From assembly GCA_016208225.1 (NCBI GenBank), contig JACQYM010000301.1:1-34274 (forward strand): a stretch of 34,274 nt of DNA, given 5' to 3'. Position 1 is the stretch's first letter, and each line of letters starts with the position of its first letter. The DNA is from Deltaproteobacteria bacterium (lineage in GTDB: Bacteria; Desulfobacterota; Desulfobulbia; Desulfobulbales; SURF-16). The notes below the pieces were generated by a model that was not told where the DNA came from, made no database searches, and saw only the letters and a list, made by a program, of their open reading frames with translations. Below, in pieces: positions 21,498 to 26,842 of this stretch. The position numbers and the translations under genes were made by a program.

Positions 21498-21830
21498 ATG
21501 CGACAGCTCGTTATTGATGAATTGAGTATGGAAGAGAGGGCCAACCTGGATAATTACCTGAAAAGAACAACCAGGCAAGGCGGCATGGATGGCATGTTCT
21601 GGCTGCCGGTGCCGGATGACCTGCTGGCCGAGGCGCAGCAGGGCCATGAAGCATGCGGCCCTTTCTTTTTCGGGCTGGAACTGGCCGAGAAAAAACTGAT
21701 TATCGAACTGCTGGTCAGAAGCCAGAGCAACCTGCACTGTTCGTGCATCAGCTACGCCACCAGGCCCCAGCGTGACTTTGTGCTCGATTTCATGGACCGG
21801 ATGCTGGGGGAGGAACATATTAAAGCCTGA
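21498..21830 (+). CDS. Small protein of unknown function (110 aa)
   Basis: ORF with RBS-like AAGGAA upstream; followed by a terminator; composition like a real protein (MRQLVIDELSMEERANLDNYLKR...). Confidence 0.65.
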   Translation: MRQLVIDELSMEERANLDNYLKRTTRQGGMDGMFWLPVPDDLLAEAQQGHEACGPFFFGLELAEKKLIIELLVRSQSNLHCSCISYATRPQRDFVLDFMDRMLGEEHIKA

Positions 21831-21862: not shown

Positions 21863-21897
21863 AAAAAAACCGGCAGGAAATTCCTGCCGGTTTTTTT
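21863..21897. terminator. Bidirectional intrinsic terminator
   Basis: AAAAAAACCGGCAGGAA-A-TTCCTGCCGGTTTTTTT inverted repeat between convergent 110-aa gene and the dsrEFH-like genes. Confidence 0.9.
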
Positions 21898-21929
21898 GTG
21901 ACATATACTATCCGAACAATTGGAAGGGG

Positions 21930-22103
21930 CTACCACCAGCAGATTGTCTGATCCGCTCCGTAAACCATTTCGACCAGCTTGTCGTAGTCAGGCGATGCAA
22001 CATTCAGATTGAAAGTTTCATTGTCCCGGCCTTCGGAAACGATGGCCACCAGCTTCTTGACCTCTTCATTCGGCTCGGAACGGTAAACATGCAGGATTTT
22101 CAT
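21930..22103 (-). CDS. 57-aa small protein, possibly a shortened TusB/DsrH-like subunit
   Basis: Internal ATG at 22103 preceded by GGGGAG; MKILHVYRSEPNEEVKKLVAIVSEGRDNETFNLNVASPDYDKLVEMVYGADQTICWW; ends resemble TusB/DsrH termini; last gene of the tusA-dsrE-dsrF-like run. Confidence 0.6.
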   Translation of the reverse strand: MKILHVYRSEPNEEVKKLVAIVSEGRDNETFNLNVASPDYDKLVEMVYGADQTICWW

Positions 22104-22146
22104 TGTGAACTCTCCCCGTAGATCTTTGCTCTTTCGTTCTCTGTTA

Positions 22147-22467
22147 TCAGCTCTTGTCGCTGCGCATGATGCCATAGGGCACGATGACATCCATATCCCG
22201 CAGCTTCTGTCCGAGTTCCTCAAGGGTCATTTTGACAAGGGCGTATTTCTCGACATTGCCGTCGGGAATGGAATAAATCTCCCCTTCCATATCGCGGATC
22301 CAGTCAATGTTTTCCTTGTGGTAGTCGTTCATCTGGTTTTCGTCGATCTCGTTGTACATGACCACGCCATAGGCATACATGTTTTCCACGGCAAGGCCGA
22401 GAGCTGATCTGACGCCATCCAGGATATAGTCGCTGCTGGGATACATAAAGCATACTTTTTTAGACAT
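22147..22467 (-). CDS. DsrE/DsrF-like family protein (TusC/DsrF-like position)
   Basis: 106 aa with TAGGAGGAATCG RBS; MSKKVCFMYPSSDYILDGVRSALGLAVENMYAYGVVMYNE; DsrEFH-like fold by sequence feel; only one Cys. Confidence 0.65.
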   Translation of the reverse strand: MSKKVCFMYPSSDYILDGVRSALGLAVENMYAYGVVMYNEIDENQMNDYHKENIDWIRDMEGEIYSIPDGNVEKYALVKMTLEELGQKLRDMDVIVPYGIMRSDKS

Positions 22468-22476
22468 CGATTCCTC

Positions 22477-22794
22477 CTATAAAGTCAGATAGCAGTCATA
22501 GTCTTCAAGAATAGCGCCATGCTGGGCCTGGGTCGCCATTTTCTCCTGGGTAAGACCGGCAGGGATATCGGCCACGTCATAACCACATTTCTTGTAGCTG
22601 TCAGCGCAGATGGAGACATCGACGTTTTCCATGTCACACAGGGTCTTGAAATTCGGGCATTTGGTCAGATGGGTGGACATCCAGGTAAAGAATACCTTGA
22701 CCTTGGACCCTTTAGCCACGGCCGCCTGGGTGATGCCCATGACATGCCGCATATTCTGGGGAGATGTTACAAAAATCCCTATACTTTTTGCCAT
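22477..22794 (-). CDS. DsrE-family sulfur carrier-like protein
   Basis: 105 aa with GGAGG RBS; SIGIFVTSPQNMRHVMGITQAAVAKGSKVKVFFTW...VDVSICADSYKKCGYDVADIPAGL, Cys in the DsrE/TusD active-site region. Confidence 0.78.
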   Translation of the reverse strand: MAKSIGIFVTSPQNMRHVMGITQAAVAKGSKVKVFFTWMSTHLTKCPNFKTLCDMENVDVSICADSYKKCGYDVADIPAGLTQEKMATQAQHGAILEDYDCYLTL

Positions 22795-22880
22795 GTTATT
22801 CCTCCATTAAAAAAATCGAGCGACGCCTCAACCCTCATGTGGCAAACGCGCCGTAATCAGTCTTTGGATTGTCGAGCCGC

Positions 22881-23138
22881 TTATTTTTTCTTAATAAAGA
22901 AACGGAAATAGCCTGATTCTTCCTTTTCGCCGACAAACTCATGCCCGGCCCTGCTGCACCAGCCCGGCAGGTCATTGCGTGAGCCCGGGTCGGTACCGAG
23001 TACTTCCAGGATGTCACCGGAATTGATTTTATCGATTTCCTTTTTTGTCCGCAACAGGGGCATGGGGCAGCTCAGGCCTTTTGCGTCCAGAGTGCGGGCT
23101 ACTTTCACATTATCGGGTGCTTTTTTTACGTCACTCAT
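22881..23138 (-). CDS. tusA: TusA-family sulfur carrier protein
   Basis: 85 aa; LDAKGLSCPMPLLRTKKEIDKINSGDILEVLGTDPGSRNDLPGWCSRAGHEF; CPxP motif; GAGGAGG RBS. Confidence 0.92.
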   Translation of the reverse strand: MSDVKKAPDNVKVARTLDAKGLSCPMPLLRTKKEIDKINSGDILEVLGTDPGSRNDLPGWCSRAGHEFVGEKEESGYFRFFIKKK

Positions 23139-23359
23139 CGATTATTCCTCCTCACAACAGGGTTGACTTTAAGAAGCTTTTACCTCAACACACCTGGTGA
23201 AAAAAATCAGCCAGGCAACAATGAGATGATTAATGAATAATCCCTTATTGATACAAAAAATCACATAACAAGAAAGGGGTGTTCTGTCAAGACCAAAAAT
23301 GAATCATGCCTCAGCTGTGTTATTTCGTTTTATTAAACAATATCCCCGCTATAACTTAC

Positions 23360-23388
23360 TTGACAAAATTTTTAGACGGGAGTAGATG
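23360..23388 (+). promoter_or_regulatory. Candidate sigma70-type promoter for the YeeE/YedE gene
   Basis: TTGACA (23360-23365), 17-bp spacer, TAGATG (23383-23388), in the 372-bp divergent intergenic region. Confidence 0.35.
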
Positions 23389-23510
23389 TTTAGGCTTGCG
23401 ATCGGTTATGAATGATGAGTAAGTTAATGACTTCCTTGGCGGAGAGATTTCAGACGGTTTTTTTTGTGGGTGGCTGTCTAGAAAGGAAACATTAAAATAG
23501 GGGAGAAAAA

Positions 23511-24755
23511 ATGAGCGAAGAAAGTATCTTGGGAAGGAAAGTCAAAGGTCTGTACAAGGCCCTTTGCCAGGCGGAATGGAACGCCAACACGACAGGCGTG
23601 ATCGTGGCGCTTCTGACCATTCTGGTCATGGCCTGGTGGCGGCCTTGGGGTGCAGTGGGCGCCATCCGCAACTGGGGCGACTGGATGATGTACGGCTTCA
23701 CCAGTCTGATCGGCACCGATGCCGGCATTTTCGGTTATTATACCGAAGCCCCTAAGGGGATTCTGTCCGACACGGGATCCGTCATCGGCATCGGCTTTGT
23801 GGCCGGGGCGTTTGTCTCCGCCTGTCTTGGCAACGACTTTGCCCTCCGCGTGCCGCCGGTGCTGGAGATGTGCAAGGGCGCGGTCGCCGGTCTGCTCATG
23901 GGCGTCGGCTCCACCCTGGCCGGCGGCTGCAATGTCGGCGGTTTCTTCAATGCCATCGGCAACCTGTCGGCCCATGGTTTTGCCATGTGGTTCGGATTGG
24001 TCATCGGCGTCATCATTGGCCTTAAATACATCTACTGGGAGATGGAAAACGTCACCTGGGGCAGCGGCGGCGCCAAAACCATTGAATTTCCCAAGGGCCT
24101 CAATTTCCTGCTCGGTCTGGCGGCCCTTGTCGCCCTGATTGCCGGCACCTATATCTATGCCGCGAATGAAGAGAGCGACTATCTGGCCTCCATGGGCGGC
24201 CTGCTGATTATTGCCGCCGGCCTGGGCTACAGCATGCAGCGCGGCCGCTGGTGCATGATTCAGGGATTCCGCGAACCGCATATGACCGGCAACTGCACCA
24301 TGGCCAAAGCCGTGGCCCTCAGCATCTTCATCGTGGCCCTCGGCGCCACGGTTCTGAAATACGGGGTACCGGTCAGGCTGGATGGCGACCCTGTACTTGA
24401 TCCGATCAATTATGTGCGCGGTACATTCGGCTGGGGCGGCGTGGTAGGCGGCATCATTTTCGGTCTGGGCGCCATGCTGGCCGGTGGCTGCGGTACCGGA
24501 ACCCTCTGGCGTGTCGGCGAAGGGCAGTTGAAACTGTGGATCGCCGTGCCGTTTTTTGCCGTCAGCAACTCCATCATGACCGCCTGGTTCAACGACATGG
24601 AGTTCGAGGCGGACGGCGTGCTCGGCAGGTCAGTGTATCTGCCCGATGTCTTCGGCTATGGCGGCACGCTGCTGCTCATCACTGTTTTCCTGCTTACCTG
24701 GTATATCACGGTGGACTGGAACGAAGAATCCAATAAGCTGATTGTCGAAATGTAA
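23511..24755 (+). CDS. YeeE/YedE-family sulfur-compound transporter
   Basis: 414 aa, multi-TM; duplicated GGCNVGGFFNAIGNLS and GGCGTGTLWRVGEG motifs and QRGRWCMIQGFRE typical of YeeE/YedE proteins. Confidence 0.9.
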   Translation: MSEESILGRKVKGLYKALCQAEWNANTTGVIVALLTILVMAWWRPWGAVGAIRNWGDWMMYGFTSLIGTDAGIFGYYTEAPKGILSDTGSVIGIGFVAGAFVSACLGNDFALRVPPVLEMCKGAVAGLLMGVGSTLAGGCNVGGFFNAIGNLSAHGFAMWFGLVIGVIIGLKYIYWEMENVTWGSGGAKTIEFPKGLNFLLGLAALVALIAGTYIYAANEESDYLASMGGLLIIAAGLGYSMQRGRWCMIQGFREPHMTGNCTMAKAVALSIFIVALGATVLKYGVPVRLDGDPVLDPINYVRGTFGWGGVVGGIIFGLGAMLAGGCGTGTLWRVGEGQLKLWIAVPFFAVSNSIMTAWFNDMEFEADGVLGRSVYLPDVFGYGGTLLLITVFLLTWYITVDWNEESNKLIVEM

Positions 24756-24801: not shown

Positions 24802-24841
24802 AAATCGCATTCCCGGCTTGTTCGGGAATGCGATTTTTTTT
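24802..24841. terminator. Intrinsic terminator
   Basis: AAATCGCATTCCCG-GCTTGTT-CGGGAATGCGATTTTTTTT downstream of the YeeE/YedE gene. Confidence 0.9.
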
Positions 24842-25000: not shown

Positions 25001-26842
25001 ATGATCATCCCAAACACCGGCCTGCGCCCCTATATTTCCCTCGCTCCGGACCACCTGCTGCACGGCGATGAAGTTGTTGTCATCGTGGACGACGAGATCG
25101 CCATCCGCGAGCCGTTAAAGCTCTATTTCGAACAGAACGGCTTTCATGTGGCAGATGCCAGCAGCGGCAGACAGCTGATCGAGCTGCTGGCGAACAGACG
25201 CGTGGCCCTGGTGCTGCTCGATATCGGGCTGCCGGATGCGGACGGCACCTCCCTCCTGCCGCAGATCAGGTCCGGCTACCCGGATGTCTCCATCGTCATG
25301 CTCTCCGGTCAGGCTGACATCCAGGTTGCCCTGGATTGCATCCGCAACGGCGCCGACGACTACATCACCAAACCGGTGCAGTTCAACGAAATCATGGTTG
25401 CGGTCAAAAAAAACCTGGAAAAGAGACGGCTGGTGCTGGAAAACCGCCGCTACCAGCAAGATCTTGAACAGGCCTATTTCCGCATCCAGCTGCTGCATCA
25501 GCTCTCCCTGAAGATGAACAGCGTGTACCTGAACGCCGTGGAACTGGACGAAATTCTGCGCGCCATCCTGGTGGGCATCACGGCCAACGAGGGCTTGCGT
25601 TTCAACCGGGCCTTCCTCGCCCTGTTTGACCGCAATAACGAATTTCTGGTGGGCAGAATGGCCATCGGCCCGGGCTGCCGGGAAGAGGCAGCCCATATAT
25701 GGGCGGAAATGCGGGCCAAGGAGCTGAATTTTATCGACATCATCAACAACCTCGGCCAGACCTGCATGCGGGAAGATGATGCCGTGAACCAGATTGTCAA
25801 AACCCTGAAAATCCCCGTTACCCTGACGGACCATATTCTGATCAAATCGGCGTCTGAACGGCAGAGCTTCAAGGTGAGCGGCGGCCTCTCCACCGTGCCG
25901 GTGCCGCAGGACCTGATCAACCTGCTGGGCGAAGATACCTTTGTCGTGGTGCCATTATTTGCCCCCGGCCGCTCCATCGGCGTCATCATCGCCGATAATT
26001 ATGTGACCGGCAAGCCTATTCCGGACAGCCACGTCAGCACGCTGGAGCTTTTTGCCAGTCAGGGCAGCCTTGCCATCGAGCAGAGCCGCCTCTACATGGA
26101 CATGCAGAAAAAGATCACCGAGCTGGAAGAGGTGACCCATGAACTGGACAAGAACAAGGATCTGCTCATTGAGGCCGAAAGATATTCGGCCCTCGGCCAG
26201 ATGGCGGCCCAGATGGTCCATATCATCCGCAATCCTATCACCTCCATCGGCGGCGTGGCCCGCATCCTGGCCCGCAAGATTGAAGGGGATGAATGGAAAA
26301 AATATCTCGATGTCATGGTCAAGGAAACGGACAGACTGGAAGCAACCCTGACGGAACTCTTCGATTTTGTCAGCCAGCCGCAGGGCGAGAAGCAGTCGAG
26401 TAATCTGTATCCGCTGATAAAAAAGACGCTCATTCTGCTGCAGACCGGCATGACCAAGCAGAATATCACGTGGAGCCTGGATCTTGCAGAGCCTGATCCG
26501 GTGATTTTCATGGATCCGAAGCAGATCCGACGGGTGTTTCTCAATATCATCCGCAACGCCATGGAAGCCATGCCGAACGGGGGCCTGCTGAAGATCACCG
26601 CCCAGGCGGACGACGAATGGGTGCATGTTTCTTTCCGCGATACCGGCATCGGACTCGCCGGCGCGTATCTTGACCGGGCAGCGGAGCCTTTTTTTACCAC
26701 CAAGACCTATGGCACGGGCATGGGTCTCACCCTGGTTGATCGATTTATCAAGGCCCATGGGGGAAATTTTTCACTGATCCGGCATGACAACGGCCTGGAG
26801 GTGAAGATAAATCTCCCCCTGGCAAAAAATGAAAATATCTGA
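25001..26842 (+). CDS. Sensor histidine kinase with N-terminal receiver domain and central GAF-like domain
   Basis: 613 aa; REC VVVIVDDEIAIREPLKLYFEQNGF...LVLLDIGLPD...ADDYITKPVQ; GAF-like middle; H-box ALGQMAAQMVHIIRNPITSIGGVARILARKI; N-box VFLNIIRNAMEAMPNGG; G-box TKTYGTGMGLTLVDRFIKAHGG. Confidence 0.9.
   Translation: MIIPNTGLRPYISLAPDHLLHGDEVVVIVDDEIAIREPLKLYFEQNGFHVADASSGRQLIELLANRRVALVLLDIGLPDADGTSLLPQIRSGYPDVSIVMLSGQADIQVALDCIRNGADDYITKPVQFNEIMVAVKKNLEKRRLVLENRRYQQDLEQAYFRIQLLHQLSLKMNSVYLNAVELDEILRAILVGITANEGLRFNRAFLALFDRNNEFLVGRMAIGPGCREEAAHIWAEMRAKELNFIDIINNLGQTCMREDDAVNQIVKTLKIPVTLTDHILIKSASERQSFKVSGGLSTVPVPQDLINLLGEDTFVVVPLFAPGRSIGVIIADNYVTGKPIPDSHVSTLELFASQGSLAIEQSRLYMDMQKKITELEEVTHELDKNKDLLIEAERYSALGQMAAQMVHIIRNPITSIGGVARILARKIEGDEWKKYLDVMVKETDRLEATLTELFDFVSQPQGEKQSSNLYPLIKKTLILLQTGMTKQNITWSLDLAEPDPVIFMDPKQIRRVFLNIIRNAMEAMPNGGLLKITAQADDEWVHVSFRDTGIGLAGAYLDRAAEPFFTTKTYGTGMGLTLVDRFIKAHGGNFSLIRHDNGLEVKINLPLAKNENI

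Follow-up and report, generated by a model that had tools for sequence, protein, structure and literature searches.

Whether a yedE-tusA-dsrE (YTD) gene cluster marks a bacterium as a sulfur disproportionator, or serves as a general sulfur-oxidation relay in bacteria with a reductive-type Dsr pathway, is a live disagreement. The question is raised by the locus at 21930-24755 of the window, the whole 34,274-nucleotide stretch analysed here, which is contig C253 of a genome assembled in 412 contigs and 88% complete. Five genes lie where the initial annotation had placed them, with yedE (23511-24755, plus strand, 414 aa) divergent from a minus-strand run of tusA (22881-23138, 85 aa), dsrE type II (22477-22794, 105 aa, Cys-bearing), dsrF type II (22147-22467, 106 aa, conserved in position) and dsrH type II (21930-22103, 57 aa, ending TICWW), the last two being the pair of YTD "CHP" genes. 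The good ribosome-binding sites that it had reported were likewise read from the sequence, an AGGAGG- or GGGGAG-type site standing a few bases 5′ of all five starts. Gene set and order are those of the published YTD cluster (PMC8780430; PMC9751629), for which the order YedE, TusA, DsrE, Chp2, Chp1 has been given (PMC9751629). The earlier naming as a YTD-type sulfur-trafficking locus was correct, with the identity as a yedE-tusA-dsrEFH type II (YTD) cluster near certain, and the locus is thus a known gene cluster, common among Desulfobulbales relatives.

All five can be taken as real genes because a homologue of the 106-aa protein is encoded in 17 of the 22 family genomes, in all 17 with the same small-gene neighbours. 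A 97-aa ORF starting from TTG at 22223 overlaps dsrF and was rejected as the dsrH gene. In every family genome with both sides readable, yedE is divergently upstream of tusA, the contig of one genome (G008) stopping short of yedE. Beyond the family, 80 named loci were found by YedE alignment, with two YedE peptides (MAWWRPW and LKYIYWE) required, so that this sample leans towards the Desulfobulbales. In 64 of the 80 (64 of the 70 linked loci) tusA, mostly with a complete dsrEFH, is divergent from yedE, while all genes run in the same direction in 6/80 and yedE stands alone in 10/80, the sequence ahead of yedE being shorter than 800 bases in eight of these ten. With 64 divergent loci to 6 in one direction, and divergence the rule in the family genomes, the idea that the arrangement is unusual was rejected; it is ordinary in these lineages. 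The order of the 106- and 57-aa genes next to dsrE is kept in both the family and the named linked loci.

TusA matches Pfam PF01206 (3.1e-27), and the CPMP motif noted earlier was confirmed at residues 24-27, its catalytic Cys24 being present in 70/70 linked loci. The claim of a Cys-bearing DsrE-like gene held, with a weak family match: Cys63 is conserved in 69/69 linked relatives (Cys70 varies) and 14 of 28 members match DsrE (PF02635), but the 105-aa window protein itself scores 18.1 bits, under the cut-off of 22.7. Cys63 is the predicted sulfur-carrying residue, and in hhalign it falls opposite the active-site Cys of TusD in a low-probability alignment that is not significant.

The 106-aa protein had been called DsrE/F-like, a description that sequence comparison could not bear out and that relies on gene order, conservation and published structural work. 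No Pfam family was matched by either the 106-aa (DsrF) or the 57-aa (DsrH) protein, and no link was detected between the DsrE and DsrF profiles. Profile searches of the PDB with DsrE, DsrF and DsrH gave nothing significant, nor did hhalign against E. coli TusD, TusC and TusB, leaving DsrF and DsrH with no sequence link to TusC and TusB. The AlphaFold2 model of DsrF, built from an 11-row alignment, reached a pLDDT of 54 and had no useful match among PDB folds. DsrH, whose full-length linked copies are all 57-58 aa long, was modelled with a pLDDT of 91 as a predicted beta-alpha-beta-alpha-beta fold, for which Foldseek against the PDB returned nothing significant, the protein being too short for a significant match. 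Given the lack of a TusC/TusB link, the poor DsrF model and the null fold searches, the DsrEFH fold is not confirmed here. It rests on a 2026 study in which the dsrE-like gene and the two hypothetical genes of YTD were identified as a divergent DsrEFH complex and renamed DsrEFH type II (PMC13293266). A second study came to the same structural conclusion, but regarded the complex as a non-orthologous structural analogue and preferred a role in disproportionation (PMC13047784).

The transporter matches Pfam Sulf_transp (PF04143, 6.3e-45) and has the two GGC motifs reported earlier, at Cys140 and Cys327. Together with Cys248, each of these cysteines is present in 80/80 aligned named loci, and the three (Cys140, Cys248 and Cys327) align with the three transport cysteines, Cys293, Cys22 and Cys91, of Spirochaeta thermophila YeeE. 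The two halves are swapped relative to that protein: the C-terminal half of YedE corresponds to the N-terminal half of YeeE, and its N-terminal half to the C-terminal one. With curated TsuA models YedE scores 91 bits against a cut-off of 645 and 72 bits against one of 400; along its full length it aligns collinearly with the YedE/FdhT model, also far below cut-off. Since the TsuA scores are low and the halves swapped, the substrate cannot be transferred from S. thermophila YeeE/TsuA. The family assignment gives no support to thiosulfate, one of the imported species proposed in the initial annotation, and judging from the protein sequence thiosulfate should not be assumed as the substrate of this YedE subfamily. 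Elsewhere in the genome, close to the end of a contig, there is a further YeeE/YedE-family gene distinct from this one (L046 4459-4971, G000:C357).

E. coli TusA and TusBCD supply sulfur for tRNA thiolation and YeeE/TsuA imports thiosulfate. Membership of the window proteins in the TusA, TusBCD and YeeE/TsuA families would accommodate an assimilatory or tRNA-thiolation supply (TusBCDE-like), or thiosulfate uptake (TsuAB-like), apart from energy metabolism. We regard this as very improbable: TusA scores 63.7 against a curated TusA cut-off of 78 and 19.1 against a TsuB cut-off of 147.5, YedE is far below TsuA, DsrF and DsrH are unlike TusC and TusB, and dsrEFH II co-occurs with dsrAB (PMC13293266).

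Between tusA and yedE lie 372 bp in which each operon has a TTGACA box pointing towards it, and 16-17 bases past either box stands a TA-rich hexamer. On the tusA-dsrEFH side the -35-like box is at 23285-23290 on the minus strand (TGTCAA on the plus strand) with a -10-like element near 23263-23268; on the yedE side it is at 23360-23365 on the plus strand, followed by a -10-like TAGATG at 23383-23388. The tusA-side box is kept in 57/64 divergent loci and the yedE-side box in 61/64, vs about seven in shuffles for either, and the arrangement resembles a pair of sigma-70-type promoters set back to back. A 9-bp palindrome between them, ATGAATCAT, was dropped as a candidate operator since it occurs in only 4/64 loci. 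Downstream of yedE is a strong intrinsic terminator (24802-24836, plus strand) with a 15-bp stem and T tail. At the other end, between dsrH and a convergent gene, an inverted repeat flanked by A/T tracts (CCGGCAGGAAATTCCTGCCGG, 21867-21898, no strand assigned), read by eye and not reported by the terminator scan, is a probable two-way terminator. The convergent gene (21498-21830, 110 aa) has no Pfam match and lies beside gspD in close relatives, its homologues sitting elsewhere in farther relatives. After yedE comes a response-regulator/GAF/histidine-kinase gene (25001-26842), found at 53-90% identity in 12 named loci of close relatives. Its candidacy as a dedicated regulator is weak, strong conservation being limited to close relatives, because other families carry a different REC-HD protein near that place.

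The initial annotation had stressed that dsrAB was missing from the window, which is true and uninformative, and had advised checking the remaining genome for dsrAB, aprAB and sat. That check recovered dsrA (588.9 bits, cut-off 392.85) with the start of dsrB, cut by the contig end, as well as aprA, sat and a canonical dsrC ending GACKMAGLPKPTGCV, all on contigs other than that of the window. The missing dsrAB is thus a window effect, dsrA and the truncated dsrB being in the same genome. Two genes downstream of aprA resemble qmoA and qmoB by position and opening residues only. The marker of reductive-type Dsr, dsrD, was not found in this 88%-complete genome, and is present in 17/22 family genomes including all five congeners; as dsrB ends at a contig edge, its absence is probably an assembly gap.

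With these genes a sulfur-relay mechanism is likely, and we judge it fairly probable that the locus imports sulfane sulfur and relays it to DsrC and on to a Dsr pathway that is of reductive type and reversible. YedE would import sulfane sulfur, polysulfide- or persulfide-like, via a cysteine relay, TusA Cys24 would take the sulfur and pass it to DsrE Cys63 in the DsrEFH type II complex, and this complex would load DsrC, which would in turn feed a reductive-type DsrAB running towards sulfite, with AprAB and Sat continuing to sulfate. Sulfur transfer from TusA to DsrE Cys67 to DsrC has been obtained in vitro with cable-bacterium proteins (PMC13293266). The substrate, the direction of flux in vivo and the equivalence of the window proteins to these homologues are what we infer. 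The locus does not tell whether the electrons end up on an external acceptor, as in sulfur oxidation, or on sulfur itself, as in disproportionation.

In the second case the cluster would serve the disproportionation of S0 or thiosulfate, a special case of the relay in which sulfur itself is the electron acceptor. In keeping with this, Desulfolithobacter has more of the YTD proteins while it disproportionates thiosulfate (PMC9751629), and YTD is present in all S0 disproportionators examined in a recent survey, which also found it in strains with evidence against disproportionation (PMC12998232). The named loci found here include carriers listed in that survey with differing abilities, such as Desulfobulbus elongatus, which disproportionates S0 and not sulfite, and Desulforhopalus singaporensis, which disproportionates sulfite, other types not being reported (PMC12998232). 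A marker, however, should occur in disproportionators and seldom be carried by their other relatives, and the order-wide count, which is of the DsrF-type gene alone and not of the whole cluster, finds that gene in 207/258 Desulfobulbales-order genomes (80%), 61/69 genera and 133/149 good genomes (89%), the last figure supporting YTD as a lineage-wide trait. Moreover dsrEFH II was found in only 25 of 63 cultured disproportionators (40%), whereas many reducers not known to disproportionate carry it: among 46 cultured carriers 35 are sulfate or sulfite reducers, 14 of which also disproportionate (PMC13293266). The hint of disproportionation drawn from the locus in the initial annotation is correspondingly weak, and what it had named as counting against that hint, an equal frequency of the cluster in relatives that do not disproportionate, is largely what the order genomes and the published carriers show. 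With the DsrF-type gene order-wide and non-disproportionating carriers published, the YTD locus alone is therefore no disproportionation marker, an inference of disproportionation from it being unproven and non-specific. As a lineage-wide trait, YTD alone should not lead metagenome studies to call disproportionation.

Elsewhere in the genome, a set at L060 3229-7092 (G000:C89) encodes a TorD-type chaperone, a Tat-signal molybdoenzyme and an FeS protein, with no adjacent membrane-anchor gene, and in this it fits the architecture of the MOLY cluster (molyA, molyB and a TorD-type molyC adjacent, Tat export, no anchor), the likeness being one of architecture. MOLY is present in 90% of S0 disproportionators (PMC12998232), and with such an architecture in its genome the organism may disproportionate S0. 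In 18/22 family genomes, some of which are without the DsrF-type gene, the set has copies whose identity is roughly 60% or higher. The name of a congener MAG, KR13_N2.mb.116, suggests an origin in drillhole OL-KR13 at Olkiluoto, where Desulfurivibrionaceae proteins have been linked to sulfur disproportionation (PMC9123182). Weighed against the order-wide DsrF-type gene and the minority of cultured disproportionators with dsrEFH II, disproportionation as the role of the cluster appears possible, if on balance doubtful.

The relay could instead feed a reverse Dsr pathway with electrons passing to an ArrAB-type arsenate reductase or another external acceptor. An ArrA-like respiratory arsenate reductase with a Tat signal and an RGRY motif is encoded in this genome (L062 2177-3604, G000:C50), a Desulfurivibrionaceae relative, MLMS-1, couples the oxidation of reduced sulfur to arsenate (PMC11283718), and four of five tested strains with yeeE-tusA-dsrEFH II oxidised sulfur compounds (PMC13293266). 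Since arrA is cut short by the end of its contig and arrB was not seen, we hold this use of the relay to be unlikely. A combination of the two can be proposed, with still lower confidence and as speculation, in which a genus akin to Desulfurivibrio, so far uncultured and mostly from groundwater, would use one relay and a reversible Dsr pathway in two ways: lacking an acceptor it would disproportionate zero-valent sulfur (MOLY-like set), and otherwise it would oxidise sulfur with arsenate (ArrA-like protein).

The preferred reading, import and relay of sulfane sulfur to DsrC and Dsr, can be set beside the systems already described. The DsrEFH type I of Allochromatium vinosum and the TusBCD of E. 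coli have a weak DsrE-family signal in common with the window DsrE, but the window F and H subunits have no detectable sequence link to them, and the window DsrH, unlike theirs, is only 57 aa and lacks Cys20. YeeE/TsuA of S. thermophila (PDB 6leo) belongs to the same Pfam family as the window YedE with the same three cysteine positions, but is about 340 aa against 414 aa and has its halves in the opposite order. In the cable bacterium Electronema aureum the yeeE-tusA-dsrEFH II locus, compared by description, has a common gene set and one conserved DsrE Cys (PMC13293266), and a probable reductive-type Dsr background is common to the two at the level of the family. In Desulfolithobacter dissulfuricans the YTD locus GF1_30690-30730, compared by gene order rather than by strand, shows no visible difference, the identical five genes standing in the same order.
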